Below, piece after piece: positions 1 to 7,616 of a stretch of DNA of 7,616 nucleotides. Origin of the DNA: Sporomusa sp. GTDB taxonomy: Bacteria > Bacillota_C > Negativicutes > Sporomusales > Sporomusaceae. A program made the translations under genes and the position numbers. The DNA lies in the NCBI GenBank assembly GCA_029256645.1, contig JAQSXM010000151.1, forward strand, positions 1 to 7,616, in the 5' to 3' direction. The notes below the pieces were generated by a model. That model did not search any database and had not been told where the DNA came from. It was given only the letters and a program-made list of their open reading frames with translations. The stretch's first letter is position 1. Each line of letters starts with the position of its first letter.

Positions 1-26
1 CTATAATAGTTGTGTTCACAGATCAT
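1..26 (-). CDS. Start of a divergent gene of unknown product (partial, runs off left edge)
   Basis: Seen: an ATG on the minus strand (26-24) opens a frame reading MICEHNYY to the window edge without a stop. A good ribosome binding site, GAGGTG (minus, 37-32), lies 5 nt before it, and a well-formed sigma-A-type promoter (79-51) lies just upstream. Start codon, ribosome site and promoter in the right order and spacing make a real gene likely although only 8 codons are visible. The product cannot be recognised. A gene divergent from an exporter is often its regulator, and a palindrome overlaps this promoter, but that is only a guess. Confidence 0.5.
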
Positions 27-31
27 ATAGG

Positions 32-37
32 CACCTC
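32..37 (-). promoter_or_regulatory. Ribosome binding site of the divergent left-edge gene
   Basis: On the minus strand the sequence is GAGGTG followed by 5 nt and ATG. It matches six consecutive bases of the extended Shine-Dalgarno consensus at normal spacing. It is the main evidence that the short frame at the edge is translated. Confidence 0.5.
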
Positions 38-50
38 ACTTTCACTAAAT

Positions 51-79
51 ATTGTACACTGATGCGAATTTATTGACAA
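51..79 (-). promoter_or_regulatory. Sigma-A-type promoter of the divergent left-edge gene
   Basis: On the minus strand a -35 box TTGTCA (79-74) is followed by exactly 17 nt and a -10 box TACAAT (56-51). Each hexamer differs from consensus by one base. Transcription would start near 44, giving a leader of about 20 nt before the ATG at 26. The -35 box sits within the palindrome TATTGACAATA (71-81), so a repressor bound there would block this promoter. Confidence 0.6.
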
Positions 80-81
80 TA
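71..81. repeat. 11-bp palindrome TATTGACAATA, possible operator
   Basis: TATTG and CAATA are inverted around a central A at 76. The right half, ACAATAT (76-82), also has an inverted partner ATATTGT (49-55) over the -10 box of the divergent promoter. Outside those, CACTTTC (37-43) faces GAAAGTG (85-91). The nested symmetry covers the whole divergent promoter and may be a regulator binding region. No regulator family can be named from this alone. Confidence 0.35.
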
Positions 82-100
82 TGAGAAAGTGAAAAAAGAC

Positions 101-130
101 TTGATTTATAAATAGTGCAAGGTTTATGAT
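101..130 (+). promoter_or_regulatory. Sigma-A-type promoter of the TauE/SafE gene
   Basis: A -35-like TTGATT (101-106) is followed by 18 nt and a -10 box TATGAT (125-130). The predicted start near 137 leaves a leader of about 30 nt before the TTG start at 169. It points away from the promoter at 51-79, so the two genes form a divergent pair with about 45 bp between their -35 boxes (79 to 101) minus intervening sequence. A better-looking TTGACA at 73-78 has no -10 box at usable spacing on this strand. Confidence 0.5.
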
Positions 131-168
131 AATATCGTTGCATTCTTAACACAATAGGAGATGTTATT

Positions 169-936
169 TTGGATTCCATTAGCCCTGAAATTATTTTATT
201 TTTACTTATTGCCGGGTTTGTTGCTGCATTTATTGATTCTGTAGTAGGTGGCGGCGGGTTAATCTCTTTGCCTGCACTTATGTTTACCGGTCTTCCTCCT
301 AGTGTGGTGTTAGGTACTAATAAACTGGCTAGTTCACTGTGTTCAATGACAAGTACCCTGTCTTTTTTGCGATCAGGGAAGGTTGATTGCCGGCTGGCAG
401 CCTGGTTGTTTCCGTTGTCTTTTGGCGGTTCGGTCCTGGGGGCATATACAGTTCGACATATACCACCGGAGTTTTTAAAACCGCTGGTTGTTGTGCTATT
501 AATTGTAGTAGCTATTTATACTGTGTTAAAAAAAGACTGGGGTTCAGAGTCAACCTATCAGGGGCTTACCTCTAAAACTAAGCTGATTATGGCATTAGCT
601 GTATTTGGTATTGGTTTTTATGATGGATTTTTTGGTCCCGGGGCGGGTTCATTTTTCATTTTCTCATTTTTGATGTTAGGATTTGATTTCGTTGTCGCCG
701 CAGGCAATGCTAAAGTGATGAATTTCGCCAGTAATATTGCCGCAGCGATTACCTTTATCTATCTTGATTCAGTGAACTTTCACTACGGGTTTATCATGGG
801 GGGGGCAATGATCGCCGGTGCACTTGTCGGCTCGCGTGTTGCTATTAAGAGCGGTACAGCCTATGTACGGCCGTTGTTTATTGGTATGACCAGTCTGTTA
901 ATTGGCAAGCAATTATGGGATTTGGTGATGAAATAA
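169..936 (+). CDS. TauE/SafE (TSUP) family membrane transporter, YfcA-like
   Basis: The 255-residue protein is largely hydrophobic with about eight likely membrane segments. It carries the duplicated signature of the TauE/SafE family: VDS-like FIDSVVGGGGLISLPAL (21-37) with GTNKL (49-53) in the first half, and YDGFFGPGAGSFF (151-163) with GNAKVMN (179-185) in the second. Family members are proposed to move sulfite, sulfonates or other organic anions across the cytoplasmic membrane; the substrate here is not indicated. Length is normal. The start is TTG 169, placed 8 nt after AGGAG (156-160); the ATG at 161 is out of frame. It has its own promoter (101-130) and is a single-gene unit ending at the hairpin at 939-987. 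Nothing nearby suggests sulfur or taurine metabolism. Confidence 0.88.
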   Translation: MDSISPEIILFLLIAGFVAAFIDSVVGGGGLISLPALMFTGLPPSVVLGTNKLASSLCSMTSTLSFLRSGKVDCRLAAWLFPLSFGGSVLGAYTVRHIPPEFLKPLVVVLLIVVAIYTVLKKDWGSESTYQGLTSKTKLIMALAVFGIGFYDGFFGPGAGSFFIFSFLMLGFDFVVAAGNAKVMNFASNIAAAITFIYLDSVNFHYGFIMGGAMIAGALVGSRVAIKSGTAYVRPLFIGMTSLLIGKQLWDLVMK

Positions 937-938
937 AA

Positions 939-987
939 CAATATAGAAAATCGACTACCCCTGCCGGGTAGTCGATTTTCTATATTG
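939..987. terminator. Perfect 22-bp hairpin, probable bidirectional terminator
   Basis: The arms 939-960 and 966-987 are exact inverted complements separated by the 5-nt loop CTGCC. The GC-rich top of the stem (GACTACCC/GGGTAGTC) is flanked by AAAATC and GATTTT, so each direction has a short U-run after the core stem. On the minus strand the full stem is also followed by TTTTATTT. It begins 3 nt after the TauE/SafE stop codon and lies about 80 nt beyond the convergent cheV stop, so it can end both transcripts. Confidence 0.85.
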
Positions 988-1065
988 CTCAAACGTATGA
1001 AGTCCTCTGAATAGAGGCAAGGATTGGCTTACACTTTTTGCTAAAGATTTGGTCGGTTGTGTTTC

Positions 1066-1968
1066 TTAGAGAATAAATTTATCAACAAGATCGATTAGCT
1101 GAGTGATTTCCGGTTTTGAGACCTGGCCGTTAGCACCAATGGATTGCCCTTTAAGGCGCATTTCCTCGTTGATGAGTGAAGAGAAGATAACAACAGGTAA
1201 ATGGTTAAGCTTATCATGTTCTTTGATTCGTTTAGTGAGATGATGACCATCCATTTGTGGCATCTCAATATCGGTAATTACAAGCTGGATTTTGCTCTCA
1301 ATTGGTACGCCGCCGGCGGCTAATTGTTCAATCTTTTCCCAGGCGTCCAGGCCATTCTCTGTCAGGATAACATTGGCATAGCCTGCCTTGTGGAGGGTAC
1401 CTAATAATAAATCCCGCAGCATCTTGGAATCTTCAGCGACTAGAATCGTCTTATTCTGACGAATATCGGTTACATCGGCTGACTTTTCCGCGATTTCATT
1501 GAATTTCTGATTCATTTCCGGGTTGACGTCAGCTACTATTTTTTCAAAATCAAGGAGGACGACCATCTTATCAGTCATTTTTATTATACCGACAACCATA
1601 TCTGAGTTGGCGATGTGGGGCGGCGGTTCCATAGCGGTCCACGATATACGGTGAATTCGGGAAACCTCATCAACAAGAAAAGCAACATAGTAGTTATTAA
1701 GCTCACTTACAATAATTTTCGGCGAGGTTGTTGTTGATTGGCTGCCCAGGCAACGGGGGAGATTGATCAGCGGCATAACCCGTCCGCGCAGAGTGAAAAT
1801 ACCGTCGACCCACGGATGGACGTTCGGCATTTTAGTGACAGGTAAGGGGTTAATAACTTCTCTAACTTTGGCTACATTAATGCCATAACTGACTGGGCCT
1901 ATTGAAAATTCAACTATCTCAAATTCGTTTGTGCCAGTTTCCAGTAAAATACCCTTTTTTTCAGACAT
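1066..1968 (-). CDS. cheV: CheV-type chemotaxis protein: CheW-like adaptor fused to a response-regulator receiver
   Basis: The 300-residue cytosolic protein has two domains. Residues about 15-150 form a CheW-like adaptor (FEIVEFSIGPVSYGINVAKVREV; VDGIFTLRGRVMPLINLP), which couples chemoreceptors to the CheA kinase. Residues about 173-300 form a receiver: acidic pocket E179-D180, phosphoacceptor D233 in ITDIEMPQMDG, switch residue S263 and conserved K285 in VSKPE. All residues needed for phosphorylation are present. In the family, phosphorylation tunes receptor-kinase coupling for adaptation. The ATG at 1968 is preceded by AGAAGGG at usable spacing. No other chemotaxis gene is adjacent, so this is an orphan cheV, convergent with the exporter gene and divergent from mnmE. 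I found no convincing sigma-A or sigma-D promoter before it. Confidence 0.9.
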   Translation of the reverse strand: MSEKKGILLETGTNEFEIVEFSIGPVSYGINVAKVREVINPLPVTKMPNVHPWVDGIFTLRGRVMPLINLPRCLGSQSTTTSPKIIVSELNNYYVAFLVDEVSRIHRISWTAMEPPPHIANSDMVVGIIKMTDKMVVLLDFEKIVADVNPEMNQKFNEIAEKSADVTDIRQNKTILVAEDSKMLRDLLLGTLHKAGYANVILTENGLDAWEKIEQLAAGGVPIESKIQLVITDIEMPQMDGHHLTKRIKEHDKLNHLPVVIFSSLINEEMRLKGQSIGANGQVSKPEITQLIDLVDKFIL

Positions 1969-2017
1969 TGCCAGCCCTTCTTTCTTTTTTCAATAACGGA
2001 CAAAAATAGACAATTTC

Positions 2018-2038
2018 AGATAGATACTACTTCTATCT
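2018..2038. repeat. 7-bp inverted repeat in the cheV leader
   Basis: AGATAGA (2018-2024) and TCTATCT (2032-2038) are exact inverted complements around a 7-nt spacer. It lies about 50 nt upstream of the cheV start, in untranslated sequence. It could be a small operator or a weak leader hairpin. A short AT-rich repeat like this can also occur by chance. Confidence 0.3.
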
Positions 2039-2132
2039 TAGGGATCTTTTACCTGCTAGTAACTTGTCCATAATAGTAATTTTATGTGTATTTTTAATTT
2101 TTGCAGAGAATACTATATTAATTATTCTGCTT

Positions 2133-2161
2133 GCAGGAAAAATGGAAAGTGCAGGGAATTA
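2133..2161 (+). promoter_or_regulatory. Sigma-H-type promoter of the mnmE operon
   Basis: The sigma-H consensus of Bacillus is RnAGGAWWW, 11-12 nt, RnnGAATWW. Here GCAGGAAAA (2133-2141), an 11-nt spacer and AGGGAATTA (2153-2161) match every specified base. Seventeen nt separate AGGA from GAAT, the same as I recall for the B. subtilis spoVG promoter. The expected start is near 2168, giving a leader of roughly 55-60 nt. The motif overlaps a TATAAT box at 2160-2165 that lacks a good -35 partner. The consensus is established knowledge; its use here is inference. Confidence 0.6.
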
Positions 2162-2165
2162 TAAT
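2160..2165 (+). promoter_or_regulatory. TATAAT box, possible overlapping sigma-A -10 element
   Basis: A perfect TATAAT lies 60 nt before the mnmE start. The bases 17 nt upstream (GAAAAA) are not a -35 box, and TTGCAG at 2131-2136 is 23 nt away, too far. A weak sigma-A promoter overlapping the sigma-H motif could supply basal expression of these housekeeping genes. Confidence 0.35.
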
Positions 2166-2225
2166 ACATTTACAGTTTATTCTTATTTCAATCATGTTTA
2201 ATATGTCTCAAGGAGTGGAGTCTTT

Positions 2226-3620
2226 TTGAATATGCTGACCGGCGATGATACAATTAGTGCTATAGCCACGGCGATAGGTGAGGGCGGCATTGGCATTGTC
2301 AGAATTAGCGGCCGTAAAGCTGTGACTATTGCTAACAAACTATTTATTAGTAAAACAGGTAAGCAGACAACCAATATTGTGTCACATCAGGTTGTTTATG
2401 GTGAAATTGTTGACCCTGCCAGTGGCGAGACTGTTGATGAGGTTTTATTAATTATAATGCGTGCGCCCCATTCTTATACCCGGGAAGACGTTGCTGAAAT
2501 CCATTGCCATGGTGGTCCAGTACCATTAAAACGAATTTTAGACCTGACGCTTATACTGGGATCCAGGCTGGCTGAACCTGGCGAGTTTACAAAAAGAGCA
2601 TTTTTAAATGGCCGTCTTGATCTGGCACAGGCTGAGGCTGTTATTGATATAATCAGAGCAAAGACCGATGCCTCGCTTAAGACGGCAGTAGGTAATTTAT
2701 CCGGACATTTATCAACTGAGATTAAACACTTGCGTTATAATATCCTCAGTATGATTGCTCAACTGGAAGCCGCTATTGATTTTCCGGAAGAAGATATTGA
2801 GGAAGCGGCAGCCGCTGATGTGGCTCAGCTTATTGTCAAAGCTAAAGCCGATATAGATAAACTGTTGGCCACAGCTCAGACCGGCCGGATATTACGGGAA
2901 GGCCTGGCAACTGTAATTATTGGTAAGCCCAATGTCGGCAAGTCAAGTCTGCTTAATGCCCTGCTGAGAGAGAAAAGGGCTATTGTTACTGACATTCCCG
3001 GTACGACCCGGGACATCATTGAAGAGTATGTTAATATCCGTGGCATACCGCTTAAAATAATCGATACTGCAGGTATTCGTGAGACGGCCGATGTTGTGGA
3101 GAGAATCGGGGTCGCAAGGGCTAAGGAACTAATAAATCAGGCTGATCTTATTCTGTTGCTCTTAGATGCCTCTGAACCACTGGCCCCTGAAGACCGGGCT
3201 GTATTAGAGCTGCTTTCCGGGCAGCAGGCTATTATTCTCGTGAATAAGAGTGACTTACCATCCTTGCTCGATTTTGCCGAACTTGAGCAGCATATTGGCA
3301 GTCGGATGGTAGTAAAAATGTCGGTAACACAAGGCGACGGATTGGCTGAACTAGAAGAGAAAATTGCTAACTTAGTTTATGGTGGACATGTCAGTCAGGG
3401 TGAGGCCGCTTTTGTGAATAATGTTCGCCATGCTGATGCATTAAGGCATACTAATCAACGTCTTGCCGAGGCTTTGCTGACAATTGAGGACGATATGCCG
3501 CCTGACTGTGTCGTTGTTGATCTGCGGGCTGCCTGGGAGAAGCTTGGTGAGATTACCGGTGATACCGTAGGTGAGGATATCATTGATCAGATATTTACTC
3601 AATTTTGTATTGGTAAATAG
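2226..3620 (+). CDS. mnmE: MnmE, tRNA wobble-uridine modification GTPase
   Basis: MnmE works with MnmG to install the carboxymethylaminomethyl group (cmnm5) on U34 of tRNAs reading split-box codons, using a folate one-carbon donor and GTP hydrolysis. The 464 residues show the N-terminal folate-binding domain (EGGIGIVRISG at 19-29), the helical-domain signature GEFTKRAFLNGRLDLAQAEAV (119-139), and a G domain inserted in the helical region: G1 GKPNVGKS (233-240), G2 GTTRD (259-263), G3 DTAG (280-283), G4 NKSD (340-343). The C-terminus is the family hallmark FCIGK (460-464) with its conserved cysteine at 461. Length is normal and nothing is missing. TTG 2226 lies 10 nt after AAGGAG (2210-2215); an in-frame ATG at 2232 is a possible alternative (462 residues), 11 nt after GGAG (2217-2220). 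It heads the operon and ends 72 nt before the preferred mnmG start. Confidence 0.97.
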   Translation: MNMLTGDDTISAIATAIGEGGIGIVRISGRKAVTIANKLFISKTGKQTTNIVSHQVVYGEIVDPASGETVDEVLLIIMRAPHSYTREDVAEIHCHGGPVPLKRILDLTLILGSRLAEPGEFTKRAFLNGRLDLAQAEAVIDIIRAKTDASLKTAVGNLSGHLSTEIKHLRYNILSMIAQLEAAIDFPEEDIEEAAAADVAQLIVKAKADIDKLLATAQTGRILREGLATVIIGKPNVGKSSLLNALLREKRAIVTDIPGTTRDIIEEYVNIRGIPLKIIDTAGIRETADVVERIGVARAKELINQADLILLLLDASEPLAPEDRAVLELLSGQQAIILVNKSDLPSLLDFAELEQHIGSRMVVKMSVTQGDGLAELEEKIANLVYGGHVSQGEAAFVNNVRHADALRHTNQRLAEALLTIEDDMPPDCVVVDLRAAWEKLGEITGDTVGEDIIDQIFTQFCIGK

Positions 3621-3680
3621 GAATGCGAGCAATAATTAGCTGCGCTGTTGCATTTACGCATAATAGTCTTGTTAATTAAT

Positions 3681-3689
3681 GAGGTGGAG
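3681..3689 (+). promoter_or_regulatory. Ribosome binding site that sets the mnmG start
   Basis: GAGGTGGAG is followed 3 nt later by TTG 3693. It is the only strong Shine-Dalgarno sequence in the mnmE-mnmG gap. It lies inside the longest open frame (which begins at TTG 3648), so that upstream extension is probably untranslated. Confidence 0.75.
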
Positions 3690-3692
3690 ATT

Positions 3693-5567
3693 TTGTTTCA
3701 GGCAGGAACTTATGATGTAGTAGTTATCGGTGCAGGACATGCCGGCTGTGAGGCTGCGCTGGCTGCAGCACGTCTGGGTTGCCGGACGCTGATTACTACG
3801 CTTAATATGGATAATATTGCAATGATGCCATGTAATCCGGCGGTAGGCGGACCGGCAAAAGGGCATCTGGTGCGGGAGATAGATGCGCTGGGTGGTCAGA
3901 TGGGTATTAATACTGACAAGACCTGTATCCAAGTGCGGATGCTTAATACCGGCAAAGGCCCGGCTGTGCATGCCTTGCGGGCTCAGGCTGATAAACAGAT
4001 GTATCAGTTGGCGATGAAGCATACCCTGGAAAAGCAGCCAAATTTGGACGTAAAGCAAGCGCTGATTGAAGATATTTTGGTTGAGAGTGGTCAGGTGACA
4101 GGGGTAGTTACTGAATTAGGGGAAGTGTACGGTGCTGCCTGTGTTGTTTTGGCTACAGGTACTTACCTGCGCGGCAAGATCATTATCGGTGATATTAATT
4201 ATCCTGGCGGACCGGCCGGGCAGCGACCGGCCATAAAGTTGTCTGAGACACTTCGCGATTTGGGTATCACGCTAATGCGTTTTAAAACCGGAACACCGGC
4301 CAGAGTGGATGCCCGGACTGTAGATACCGGTAAAATGACCATTCAGCCTGGTGATGATATAACCCATAATTTCTCTTTTATGAGTGACATTATTACCAGG
4401 GATCAAACGCCTTGCTGGCTTACTTATACCAATGAAGAGACGCATGCGATTATCAGAGCAAATATGCACCGCTCGCCTTTATATATGGGCATGATTGAGG
4501 GGACCGGGCCGCGCTATTGTCCGTCAATTGAGGATAAGGTTGTCCGGTTTGCTGATAAATTATCGCACCAGGTTTTTGTTGAACCAGAAGGGGCAGGCAC
4601 TACTGAAATGTATGTTCAGGGGATGTCCACAAGCCTGCCTGTTGATGTGCAGTTAGCTTTCCTGCGTACTATTCCCGGCCTCGAGAAGGCAGAAGTCATG
4701 CGGGTCGGCTATGCAATTGAATATGATTGTGTTGATCCTACAGAGCTTAAACCTACCCTTGAGACTAAAAAGGTTCGGGGATTGTTTTCATCAGGACAGG
4801 CTAATGGCACCTCCGGTTATGAAGAGGCAGCGGCTCAGGGTCTGATAGCCGGTATTAATGCTGCCCTGTTGGCACAGGCTAAGCCACCCTTTATTTTGTC
4901 GCGGTCAGATGCGTATATTGGCGTGTTAATTGATGATCTGGTGACTAAAGGTACCAGTGAACCATACCGGATTATGACATCACGGGCAGAATACCGGTTA
5001 ATTCTTCGTCAAGACAACGCTGATCTTCGCCTAACGGAAAAAGGGCGTGAAATCGGTCTTGTTAGCAATGAACGGTATGAGCGGTTTATTGCTAAACGCG
5101 AGACTATTCAAAGTACACTTTCGCTATTAAAAAGCAGGCAAATTACACCGGTGTCTGAAATACAGGCTAAACTGGCTGTGCTTGGTACGGCTGAGCTGCG
5201 GACAGGTATTACCCTGTATGATTTACTTAGACGTACAGAGATAACCTATGACGCAATGCGTACTCAGTTTGATTTGCCTGAGGTACCCCCATTAGTTAAG
5301 GAACAGATTGAGATTGCGGTTAAATATGAAGGTTATATTCAAAAACAGATTGAACAAGTCGAACGCTCGGCAAAACTAGAGACAAAACGGTTGCCAGAAG
5401 ATATTGATTATAATCAAATTAGCGGTTTGGCGTTAGAAGCCCGCCAAAAGCTCAATAAAATCCGGCCGCTGTCAGTTGGACAGGCTGCACGCATATCCGG
5501 AGTATCGCCAGCCGATATCTCGATACTCATGGTGTACCTGGAACAACGGCGAAGTAGAGCAGAGTAA
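3693..5567 (+). CDS. mnmG: MnmG (GidA), FAD-dependent tRNA wobble-uridine modification subunit
   Basis: MnmG is the FAD- and NADH-binding partner of MnmE in the cytosolic complex that makes cmnm5U34. From the TTG at 3693 the protein has 624 residues, normal for the family, and begins [20 protein letters not shown]. It shows the FAD-binding GAGHAG (13-18), [20 protein letters not shown] with a conserved cysteine at 47, [33 protein letters not shown] with a conserved cysteine at 276, and the helical C-terminal end [17 protein letters not shown] through [12 protein letters not shown] that contacts MnmE. The cysteines fall at the positions expected from E. coli MnmG (47 and 277), supporting this start over TTG 3648, which adds 15 unmatched residues (through [15 protein letters not shown]) and lacks a ribosome site. 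It lies 72 nt after mnmE and 17 nt before rsmG, in one operon. Confidence 0.96.
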
Positions 5568-5578
5568 AAAAGGGGGGG
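5566..5578 (+). promoter_or_regulatory. Homopolymeric A6-G7 junction carrying the rsmG ribosome binding site
   Basis: Six A (5566-5571) directly followed by seven G (5572-5578) link the mnmG stop codon to the rsmG start, whose ATG begins 6 nt later at 5585. The G-run is the only Shine-Dalgarno-like sequence. It is not the usual AGGAGG: pairing with the 16S tail must include a G-U wobble. Such a run tends to change length during replication, which would alter ribosome-site strength and spacing. Confidence 0.55.
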
Positions 5579-5584
5579 CTGCTA

Positions 5585-6304
5585 ATGGACGGCTTTAAAG
5601 AGCTACTGGCACAAGCGGCTACTGAGTATGGTCTGTTATTATCAGAAAACCAACTGATAGCCATGGAGACTTACTATCGTCTCTTGATTGAATGGAATGA
5701 AAAAATCAACCTGACGGCCATTACTCTGCCACACGATGTGGCTGTTAAACATATGATTGATTCCCTGTCTTGTTACCGGGAGGATATCTTTTTATCTGAT
5801 ACCAGTGTGATTGATGTTGGCACAGGTGCCGGCTTTCCCGGTATTCCACTGAAGATTTATCGGCCTGATCTAAAGCTGACACTCATGGATTCACTTAATA
5901 AGCGGCTGTTGTTTTTGCGGGAGGTTACCGACACTCTTGAACTCCGCGGTGTTGAACTTGTACATGCGCGGGCTGAGGAGGGAGGCAAAAACAGGCAATA
6001 CCGGGCAAAATTTCAGATTGCGGTTTCACGGGCCGTAGCGAGAATGAATGTTTTAAGTGAGCTCTGCTTGCCGTTTGTCCAGACCGGTGGTTATTTTATT
6101 GCCCTTAAAGGCGCTCAATATGAGGAAGAAGTGATAGAAGCAGCCAAGGCGATAACTACCCTTGGTGGTAGGGTTGAACGAATGGAACCAGTTATCCTAC
6201 CCGGCCTTGCTGATAAGAGGGCGGTCGTCTATATAAAAAAGGTTGCTGCCACACCTTCAGACTATCCCCGGCGCCCAGGAACACCTGAAAAAAAGCCGCT
6301 CTAA
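5585..6304 (+). CDS. rsmG: RsmG (GidB), 16S rRNA m7G527 methyltransferase
   Basis: RsmG uses S-adenosylmethionine to methylate N7 of G527 in the 530 loop of 16S rRNA; in several bacteria its loss gives low-level streptomycin resistance. The 239-residue protein shows the family landmarks in order: WNEKINLTAI (37-46), HMIDSL (56-61), the SAM-binding motif VIDVGTGAGFPGIPL (75-89), LNKRLLFLREV (104-114), HARAEE (127-132), SRAVARM (148-154) and LKGAQYEEE (174-182). The C-terminus YPRRPGTPEKKPL is also typical. Length is normal and no key residue is missing. The ATG at 5585 follows a G-rich ribosome site and lies 17 nt after the mnmG stop, so rsmG is co-transcribed with mnmEG. A sigma-H-type promoter for noc begins just beyond its stop codon. 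Confidence 0.96.
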   Translation: MDGFKELLAQAATEYGLLLSENQLIAMETYYRLLIEWNEKINLTAITLPHDVAVKHMIDSLSCYREDIFLSDTSVIDVGTGAGFPGIPLKIYRPDLKLTLMDSLNKRLLFLREVTDTLELRGVELVHARAEEGGKNRQYRAKFQIAVSRAVARMNVLSELCLPFVQTGGYFIALKGAQYEEEVIEAAKAITTLGGRVERMEPVILPGLADKRAVVYIKKVAATPSDYPRRPGTPEKKPL

Positions 6305-6307
6305 TAT

Positions 6308-6336
6308 AGAGGAAAATTCCAGTTGCTGCAGAATAT
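6308..6336 (+). promoter_or_regulatory. Sigma-H-type promoter directly upstream of noc
   Basis: AGAGGAAAA (6308-6316), an 11-nt spacer and GCAGAATAT (6328-6336) match every specified base of RnAGGAWWW-N11-RnnGAATWW. AGGA and GAAT are 17 nt apart, exactly as in the motif before mnmE. The predicted start near 6343 gives a leader of about 40 nt before ATG 6383. The TTG at 6323 that opens the longest noc frame lies inside the promoter spacer, so transcripts from this promoter could not use it. Confidence 0.6.
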
Positions 6337-6382
6337 ATACAATAACGCAAGTCCCGAACGTTGTTTTGTAGGTGGTGGAAAC

Positions 6383-7348
6383 ATGAGAAATTTGGCCAAG
6401 CTGTTTGGTCTTGGAGATGCTTCGCCAACTGTTCCCGAACTTGTTCTTGAGAGGAGTTCTGCCGTTGTTGTTGAAGAAATAGATGCAGCTAATACTGCTC
6501 CTAATACAGAGAACGATCCTGCTAGTGGATTACAATCAGTCCTAAAAGTATCGCCTGACATTATTATCCCCAATCCTTTTCAGCCGCGGAAAACCTTTAA
6601 TGATGATTCTCTCCAGGAATTGGCAGCGTCCATTCGTGAGTTTGGTGTTATTCAGCCTCTTTTAGTACGTCGTCAAGGTGCCGTTTATGAGCTGATTGCC
6701 GGTGAACGGCGATTGAGAGCTTCGCGATTGGCCGGTCTACCTGAGGTTCCGGTAATAGTGCGGGAACTTGAGGATAAAGAAATGGCCGAGTTGGCCATGA
6801 TTGAGAACTTGCAGCGGGAAGATTTGCACTTTCTGGAGGAAGCGGAAGGCTATCAGCATCTGATTGCGAGCTTTAACTTTACCCAAGAAGAACTTGCCCG
6901 GCGGGTAGGGAAAAATCAGTCAACCATTGCCAATAAGCTTCGGTTGCTAAAACTGGCTGTAGAGGTCCGTCAGGCCGTTGTCGGACAAAACTTAACTGAA
7001 CGCCATGCACGTGCGTTGCTGAAACTTGAGGATACTACGGTACAGATGGAGGTACTCGGCGGGGTTAAAGAAAAAGGCTTAAATGTGCGGGAAACCGAGG
7101 ATTTAATTGAAACCTATACCGGAAATATTTCCCGGGAAAAGGAAAAACAGGCAACTCCTAAACAGACTGTCGTAAAGATCATTAAAGATGTGCGTATCTT
7201 TATTAATACTATTAACAGCGTAGTCAGTCAAATGAAGAAAAGCGGTATGGATATTAAGGTTAAGCAGGACATTGAAGGTGATTATGTAAATATCAGTATT
7301 CAGGTTAAGAATAATCGCCAGAAACAACCTGTAAATAACAATTCTTAA
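6383..7348 (+). CDS. noc: Noc, nucleoid occlusion DNA-binding protein (ParB/Noc CTPase family)
   Basis: Noc binds chromosomal Noc sites, uses CTP to spread or clamp on DNA, tethers it to the membrane and prevents FtsZ-driven division over the nucleoid. From ATG 6383 it has 321 residues and begins MRNLAKLFGLG, matching the short membrane-targeting amphipathic helix of B. subtilis Noc (SRFFGLG region). Next come a variable linker, NPFQPR (64-69), the CTP-binding GERR (107-110), ENLQRE (141-146), the helix-turn-helix LARRVGKNQSTIANKLRLLKL (171-191), a charged linker and a C-terminal dimerisation region. The four residues known to switch ParB to Noc specificity are all Noc-type: Q179, K185, K190 and R207. 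AGGTGG (6370-6375) lies 7 nt before the ATG. A longer frame from TTG 6323 adds 20 residues with no family match. It follows rsmG by 78 nt. The soj/parB pair expected near noc is not in the window. Confidence 0.94.
   Translation: MRNLAKLFGLGDASPTVPELVLERSSAVVVEEIDAANTAPNTENDPASGLQSVLKVSPDIIIPNPFQPRKTFNDDSLQELAASIREFGVIQPLLVRRQGAVYELIAGERRLRASRLAGLPEVPVIVRELEDKEMAELAMIENLQREDLHFLEEAEGYQHLIASFNFTQEELARRVGKNQSTIANKLRLLKLAVEVRQAVVGQNLTERHARALLKLEDTTVQMEVLGGVKEKGLNVRETEDLIETYTGNISREKEKQATPKQTVVKIIKDVRIFINTINSVVSQMKKSGMDIKVKQDIEGDYVNISIQVKNNRQKQPVNNNS
7127..7140. promoter_or_regulatory. Noc-binding-site-like palindrome inside noc
   Basis: ATTTCCCGGGAAAA matches 13 of 14 bases of the B. subtilis Noc-binding consensus ATTTCCCGGGAAAT, including a perfect 12-bp palindrome at 7128-7139. 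A second perfect palindrome, GGAAATATTTCC (7121-7132), overlaps it. The site encodes residues 249-253 in the linker between the DNA-binding and C-terminal domains, where protein constraint is low. I saw no comparable site elsewhere in the window. Confidence 0.7.
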
Positions 7349-7438
7349 AGGTTCATAGGAGCTTCAACAGTTTTCATAATTTTGCCTGTGATATAGGTCA
7401 TGGGGACATCCTGCATACACTAAACATGAGGCGAAGCT
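7349..7438 (+). other. noc-downstream gap without a clear terminator
   Basis: No hairpin followed by a T-run is visible after the noc stop codon. TGATATAGG (7389-7397) resembles an extended -10 element but has no good -35 box. Transcription may therefore read through into the small gene at 7439. GAGG (7428-7431), 7 nt before ATG 7439, is a usable ribosome binding site. Confidence 0.3.
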
Positions 7439-7616
7439 ATGATAAAAATGTTACGGATAAGTGTAATCGCTAGTGCTATTGTAATTGCCGGTACGGCCTT
7501 GGCTGCACAGCAGCGAGATAGCTGGAGGTTTTAGCTGTCCAGCAACATCTGGGTATGTTGGAGCAGGATGATTAAGGATGGTATCATCTCTGCTGCGCAA
7601 GCCAAAGCGAAAGCAA
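7439..7616 (+). pseudogene. Small exported-protein gene, apparently frameshifted (partial, runs off right edge)
   Basis: ATG 7439 follows GAGG by 7 nt and encodes a clear signal peptide, MIKMLRISVIASAIVIAGTA then LA, with a plausible cleavage before AQQ. The frame ends at TAG 7532-7534 after only 31 residues. Immediately after the signal peptide a second frame (7522-7572) reads LEVLAVQQHLGMLEQDD, and from about 7568 the first frame resumes with MIKDGIISAAQAKAKA to the edge. One lost base near 7515-7522 and one gained base near 7566-7568 would join these into a single protein reading LEQMIKDGIISAAQA across the second junction. The resulting shape, a signal peptide plus a short helical charged domain, recalls small secreted proteins such as the DUF2680 type, but I cannot assign it. 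A 31-residue peptide, or a separate gene from ATG 7578 (MVSSLLRKPKRKQ), remain possible. Confidence 0.45.

Follow-up and report, generated by a model that had tools for sequence, protein, structure and literature searches.

Does noc in Sporomusa have a promoter of its own and, if so, when would the additional Noc be made? Noc is the nucleoid occlusion protein, which keeps a cell from dividing across its chromosome. We addressed this question in a stretch of 7,616 nucleotides (nt) from Sporomusa sp. (assembly GCA_029256645.1, contig JAQSXM010000151.1, positions 1 to 7,616 of the forward strand), hereafter called the window. In this stretch, noc directly follows rsmG, and the initial annotation had proposed a sigma-H promoter in the gap between the two genes, from which noc could be transcribed separately from the modification genes upstream. 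Our analysis makes it highly probable that positions 6308-6336 are a sigma-H promoter inside the mnmE-mnmG-rsmG-noc series, raising Noc most likely at sporulation entry.

The sigma-H-type site between rsmG and noc

The elements on which the argument depends are the following:

6308..6336, plus strand: sigma-H-type promoter before noc, exact consensus match
6308..6316 and 6328..6336, plus strand: predicted -35 (RNAGGAWWW) and -10 (RNNGAATWW) of the noc promoter, separated by an 11-nt spacer
5585..6304, plus strand: rsmG (gidB), upstream gene; TIGR00138, 175.3 bits for a cut-off of 99.5
6370..6378, plus strand: ribosome-binding site AGGTGGTGG of noc, read from the sequence; second conserved block of the gap
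6383..7348, plus strand: noc, nucleoid occlusion protein, 321 amino acids; TIGR04285, 331.1 bits for a cut-off of 315

RNAGGAWWW and RNNGAATWW are the sigma-H forms of Bacillus subtilis, and they agree with the printed Sporomusa motif and with the SigH table of Clostridioides difficile. Within the 78 nt that separate the end of rsmG (6304) from the ATG of noc (6383), the site reads AG AGGAAAA, then TTCCAGTTGCT (11 nt), then GCA GAAT AT. The -35 fits at all 8 specified positions, the -10 fits as well, and the spacer of 11 nt is within the allowed 11-12 nt, confirming the full consensus match that had been noticed at 6308-6336. Transcription of noc would be expected to start at approximately 6341-6344.

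We scanned both strands of the window for exact RNAGGAWWW-N11-RNNGAATWW and found only 6308-6336 and a site before mnmE, 2133-2161, both intergenic, on the plus strand and with a spacer of 11 nt. By letter frequency, 0.0052 exact sites are expected on the plus strand and 0.0025 on the minus strand, approximately 0.008 for the whole window, and 0.00003 for the rsmG-noc gap. The earlier argument that two full matches, both intergenic and on the coding strand, are unlikely by chance therefore holds. Loose matches alone would be weak evidence, because shuffled windows gave a mean of 1.94 sites with at most 2 mismatches and 10 of 200 shuffles reached five, the number found in the window itself (2 exact sites and 3 with 2 mismatches, spacer 11, both strands). 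When scored with a matrix derived from 28 C. difficile SigH promoters, the noc site was the best of the window (18.28 bits), and the noc sites of all seven loci scored (window, L001, L003-L007) were among the top eight of 407,760 placements.

The site was exact and in the same place in 8/8 Sporomusa-group sequences (window, L001-L007). An 11-sequence footprint of the gap showed two conserved blocks, one formed by the -35 and -10 of the promoter and one by the ribosome-binding site; the spacer and the leader were largely variable. Several other explanations for the letters in the gap were tried and rejected. A chance origin was rejected on the expectation, the conservation and the matrix rank taken together. 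A simple SigA scan listed no housekeeping promoter in the rsmG-noc gap, and TACAAT at 6338-6343, considered as a housekeeping element, was not common to the relatives. The palindrome GGAAAATTCC at 6311-6320, considered as a protein site, was not kept across all relatives.

The motif also has a promoter-like distribution genome-wide. In seven Sporomusa-group genomes we counted 590 exact matches, versus 46 for the pattern read backward. At 30 loci (the first-listed places, not a random draw), 27 matches lay outside open reading frames (ORFs) of at least 100 amino acids, mostly shortly 5' of an ORF on the same strand, and random positions at these loci fell inside ORFs in 1157 of 1500 cases. A genome scan for equally good matches at background rate inside genes thus found the opposite. 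A sigma-H gene exceeded its cut-off in 6 of the 7 genomes, and a metagenome draft (G007) was below it. As the initial annotation had suggested looking for, spo0A carries the same motif form, in 20/30 genomes. Its parallel with sigma-H control of ftsAZ was not borne out in Sporomusaceae: the core AGGA-N17/18-GAAT was found within 600 nt upstream of ftsZ in 0/12 loci, and reading to 1500 nt added two unshared matches, 695 and 758 nt upstream. Overall, in its sequence record, 6308-6336 behaves like a promoter under selection, from which sigma-H would transcribe noc.

Distribution among spore formers and their relatives

We searched 150 Negativicutes genomes, of which 146 gave some match to the Noc model, 60 of them above its cut-off. 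The analysis set comprised the 79 genomes whose best Noc match was at least 289 bits; the weaker matches in the 71 excluded genomes are probably ParB, and six of these genomes carry Spo0A or SpoIVA (G010, G036, G038, G039, G099, G135). Sporulation was scored by Spo0A or SpoIVA genes. Scoring covered at most approximately 16 candidates per genome, which made Spo0A by itself an unreliable label; SpoIVA was therefore added and moved one genome (G081) to the sporulation group. One genome without an rsmG match (G008) was counted from the upstream core searches.

The core AGGA-N17/18-GAAT was present before noc in 46/51 genomes with sporulation genes versus 1/28 without (Fisher p 5e-15, without correction for kinship). 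Of the five misses, three carry 14 of 15 positions, and another (G020) has Spo0A without SpoIVA. The core started 3-17 nt after the rsmG stop in 42 of 46 placed matches, a count that includes G076, the single genome with the core and no sporulation genes, whose match is within this range; the cores of G029, G032 and G049 lie elsewhere. In Spo0A-positive genomes, the controls gave 0/50 on the reverse strand and 1/50 and 0/50 in two stretches further up. A sigma-H gene exceeded the cut-off in 136/150 genomes and, as read from the list, in 27 of the 28 without sporulation genes. In 60 chosen genomes of the 79 (28 without and 32 with sporulation genes), motif matches amounted to 8.5 per megabase without and 14.3 with sporulation genes, for 0.9-1.0 with the backward pattern. 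Because genomes without sporulation genes keep 8.5 matches per megabase versus 0.9 backward, the noc site appears to have been lost while other sites stayed.

We extended the comparison to the best 30 of 245 Clostridia genomes and the best 30 of 247 presumed Bacilli genomes by Noc score, which are not random draws. The Clostridia class name rests on L009 (Lachnospiraceae), and that of the presumed Bacilli on L008 (Tenericutes, which we take to belong to Bacilli). The core was found before noc in 20/30 Clostridia, where neither the reverse strand nor the further-up control gave a match, and in 0/30 presumed Bacilli, likewise without a match on the reverse strand. SpoIVA was detected in 29/30 Clostridia and 20/30 presumed Bacilli; among SpoIVA-positive genomes only, the core was present in 20/29 and 0/20, respectively. 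Judged from these sequences, two classes share the arrangement, and no sampled member of the class where Noc was first studied has it. The separate sigma-H-type promoter initially proposed for noc is therefore supported: both its position and its sequence are conserved across Negativicutes, and many Clostridia have it.

Several observations weigh against a sigma-H promoter of noc that serves sporulation. One Negativicutes genome with both markers has no site (G019), and G076 has the site and neither marker, although it sits among spore-forming sisters with an identical core. The core is absent from 10/30 Clostridia. Sporulation does not require the site, because 0/30 presumed Bacilli have it and 20 of them carry spoIVA. 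The further-up control gave 2/28 matches in Spo0A-negative Negativicutes and 1/30 in presumed Bacilli. On the rsmG tree (78/79 genomes, near-matches counted as present), the sporulation genes and the motif each change only 4 times, and an independent-pairs test found 2 supported pairs and had no power, so the comparative result is limited by kinship. In addition, S. sphaeroides, a member of the same genus, also uses SigH for growth: in strain KIAC, differential RNA sequencing placed the SigH motif (AGGA, 17-18 nt, GAAT) at 322 start sites, and SigH expression was higher under H2/CO2 (PMC12456013). The available main text of that paper puts its stress on acetogenesis genes and does not name noc.

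Proposed role, alternatives and neighbouring features

Sigma-H control of noc is very likely on the basis of the exactness of the site, its conservation, its class distribution, its matrix rank and the published S. sphaeroides motif. Under such control, RNA polymerase with sigma-H would start approximately 40 nt before noc; added to whatever transcription reads through from upstream, this would raise Noc but not the enzymes that modify tRNA and rRNA. The gain would most likely be used at sporulation entry, during chromosome remodelling and the shift of the septum to the pole, with origin-near Noc keeping the nucleoid free of Z-ring assembly and perhaps of new replication; alternatively, the downstream effect would be to limit re-initiation, as S. 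aureus Noc does. We infer the use at sporulation entry from what Noc is known to do and from the fact that lineages without sporulation genes have lost the element, and the presence of the site in most spore-forming relatives and its near-absence in the others suggest that extra Noc is made as sporulation begins. The initial annotation had suggested that extra Noc could help during the switch to asymmetric septation. The noc promoter itself is retained from this proposal, and the extra Noc need not be confined to that switch, because the 322 motif start sites and the response to H2/CO2 indicate that SigH in S. sphaeroides also has work outside sporulation (PMC12456013).

The same data leave some room, with a clearly smaller probability, for a sigma-H promoter whose main job lies outside septum placement, in slow or autotrophic growth or in the restraint of replication initiation. 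A growth role is possible because S. sphaeroides SigH also serves growth on H2/CO2, and S. aureus Noc controls replication initiation (PMC5540599). However, the site vanishes with the sporulation genes even though the sigma-H gene is retained, as are many sigma-H sites. Many Clostridia, a class of mostly non-acetogens, carry the noc site too. Improbable, in our view, is a second explanation, in which the conserved -10 (TGNNGAAT) would instead be a binding box for Spo0A and noc a direct Spo0A target. The 0A box is TGNCGAA; many Negativicutes sites read TGCCGAAT, TGACGAAT or TGGCGAAT, close to that box, and the site tracks the presence of Spo0A. Nevertheless, one genome after another has, at almost the same distance from rsmG, a GAAT preceded at 17-18 nt by AGGA, which a 0A box does not need; although this spacing is built into the core search, the chance controls give only 0-2 matches. 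Sporomusa itself has TGCAGAAT, off the 0A box, and the C. difficile SigH matrix ranks its site at the top. A Spo0A box and a sigma-H promoter are not mutually exclusive. Very improbable is that the block owes its conservation to something else, either an RNA leader element or chance: it does lie in a short gap, with a conserved ribosome-binding site following, but no Rfam match reaches gathering score in the window, the spacer is 11 or 12 nt with constant ends, the expectation for the gap is as low as given above, and the same type of block recurs before spo0A, soj and mnmE.

Returning to sigma-H control of noc at sporulation entry, the noc gene carries a further element, whose distribution follows that of the sporulation genes:

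7126..7141, plus strand: predicted Noc-binding-site palindrome (TATTTCCCGGGAAAAG) inside noc

Its perfect 12-nt palindrome core, TTTCCCGGGAAA, is at 7128-7139; the published consensus of the Noc-binding site (NBS) is TATTTCCCGGGAAATA (PMC7383237). Among Negativicutes, the exact 12-mer was present in 24 of the 42 noc genes read from genomes with sporulation genes versus 0/28 from those without; it was found in 0/30 noc genes of Clostridia and 0/30 of presumed Bacilli. In the first 30 Negativicutes genes, 16/16 with Ser-Arg-Glu at this position use TCC CGG GAA, and the stretch varies among the other Noc proteins. With 72 possible encodings of Ser-Arg-Glu, the same codons in 16/16 point to selection on the DNA. 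As a control, near-matches (at most 2 mismatches) in the 950 nt upstream numbered 0, 2 and 1 of 30 in the three classes.

The Noc protein of the window shares 86% identity with that of S. malonica (the closest among the matches listed), and 90% with that of another genome of the same family. By inspection, its N-terminus, MRNLAKLFGLG, resembles what we take to be the pattern of a membrane-binding amphipathic helix. By eye, the MKxLAxLFGLG-type N-terminus of spore formers was absent in seven inspected genomes of one clade without sporulation genes (L156, L158, L164, L170, L174, L176, L177), and a similar N-terminus was kept in three inspected genomes (L155, L160, L166) of a second such clade.

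The gene order in the window is a TSUP-like membrane protein (a label read from an NF007909 match below its cut-off), a CheV-like gene on the minus strand, mnmE, mnmG, rsmG and noc. The other features are:

2133..2161, plus strand: second sigma-H-type site, before mnmE (GCAGGAAAAATGGAAAGTGCAGGGAATTA), exact match, spacer 11
2028..2056, minus strand: site resembling sigma-H sites (AGGT...GAAG), 5' of the divergent CheV-like gene; 14.72 bits with the C. difficile matrix
1066..1968, minus strand: CheW/receiver (CheV-like) gene

The noc and mnmE sites had been described as identical in architecture, which is correct for the spacer; the -35 before mnmE is weaker, AGGAACA, in the 6/6 relatives reaching there, where the site reads GCAGGAACA...GGGAATA. 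The distance from this site to mnmE downstream is greater in L005 than in the other relatives. Sites related to that of the CheV-like gene were seen on the minus strand in six relatives (L001, L003-L007). Downstream of noc, 7349-7616 holds no complete ORF of at least 60 amino acids in a listing that leaves out ORFs running off the end. The ParB gene itself is beyond the window; in relatives, a second, lower-scoring ParB-type gene was found, and a ParA-type ORF downstream of noc in 6. A sigma-H-type site precedes this soj/ParA-type gene in the 6/6 Sporomusa-group loci reaching there (L001:12738, L003:12716, L004:10788, L005:12084, L006:11823, L007:13026), and noc and the chromosome-partition genes may therefore be raised together.

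Comparison with known systems

In the open-access literature, we found no report that describes, under the name noc, a sigma-H promoter of this gene. In C. difficile, CD3673 is presumably the noc orthologue. This gene, annotated as 'DNA-binding protein Spo0J-like', is SigH-dependent, with a ratio of 0.21 in the sigH mutant, and ftsZ of C. difficile is SigH-dependent as well (PMC7438776). As in Sporomusa, a sigma-H promoter precedes a Spo0J-like gene, which the authors grouped with cell division; the difference is that the CD3673 promoter has a degenerate -10 (TGTAAAAAAA) and a score of 2.16, whereas the Sporomusa noc site is a full consensus (PMC7438776). The S. sphaeroides SigH regulon provides a likeness within the genus, since the same motif is found at mapped start sites, spo0A among them (PMC12456013).

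Noc nucleates on NBS, spreads and brings DNA to the membrane, blocking division there (PMC8429893, PMC6126333), and, according to a 2017 review, it is 'not clear' how the polar septum forms while Noc continues to be present (PMC6126333). Noc in the two classes is probably not merely left over but raised at the polar-septum stage, a gain that is lost with the sporulation genes, and a vague septum problem can thereby be turned into a simple test on one promoter. In Bacillus, sigma-H activates refZ, which encodes a DNA-binding septum regulator conserved in the genus (PMC6657595). The likeness lies in the induction by sigma-H, early in sporulation, of a division regulator that binds specific DNA sequences; the difference is that the noc genes of presumed Bacilli are without the site. 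As a tentative extension, sigma-H-driven Noc in Clostridia and Negativicutes might fill the place of Bacillus RefZ in setting the polar septum site, as an induced inhibitor bound to DNA of the origin region, with many noc loci of spore-forming Negativicutes also directing Noc assembly on the origin side through a loading site of their own, and loss of sporulation might then entail loss of the promoter and the loading site, and in one clade of the membrane-binding N-terminus too. Taken together, the comparison with refZ suggests that different spore formers put sigma-H on different DNA-bound division inhibitors.
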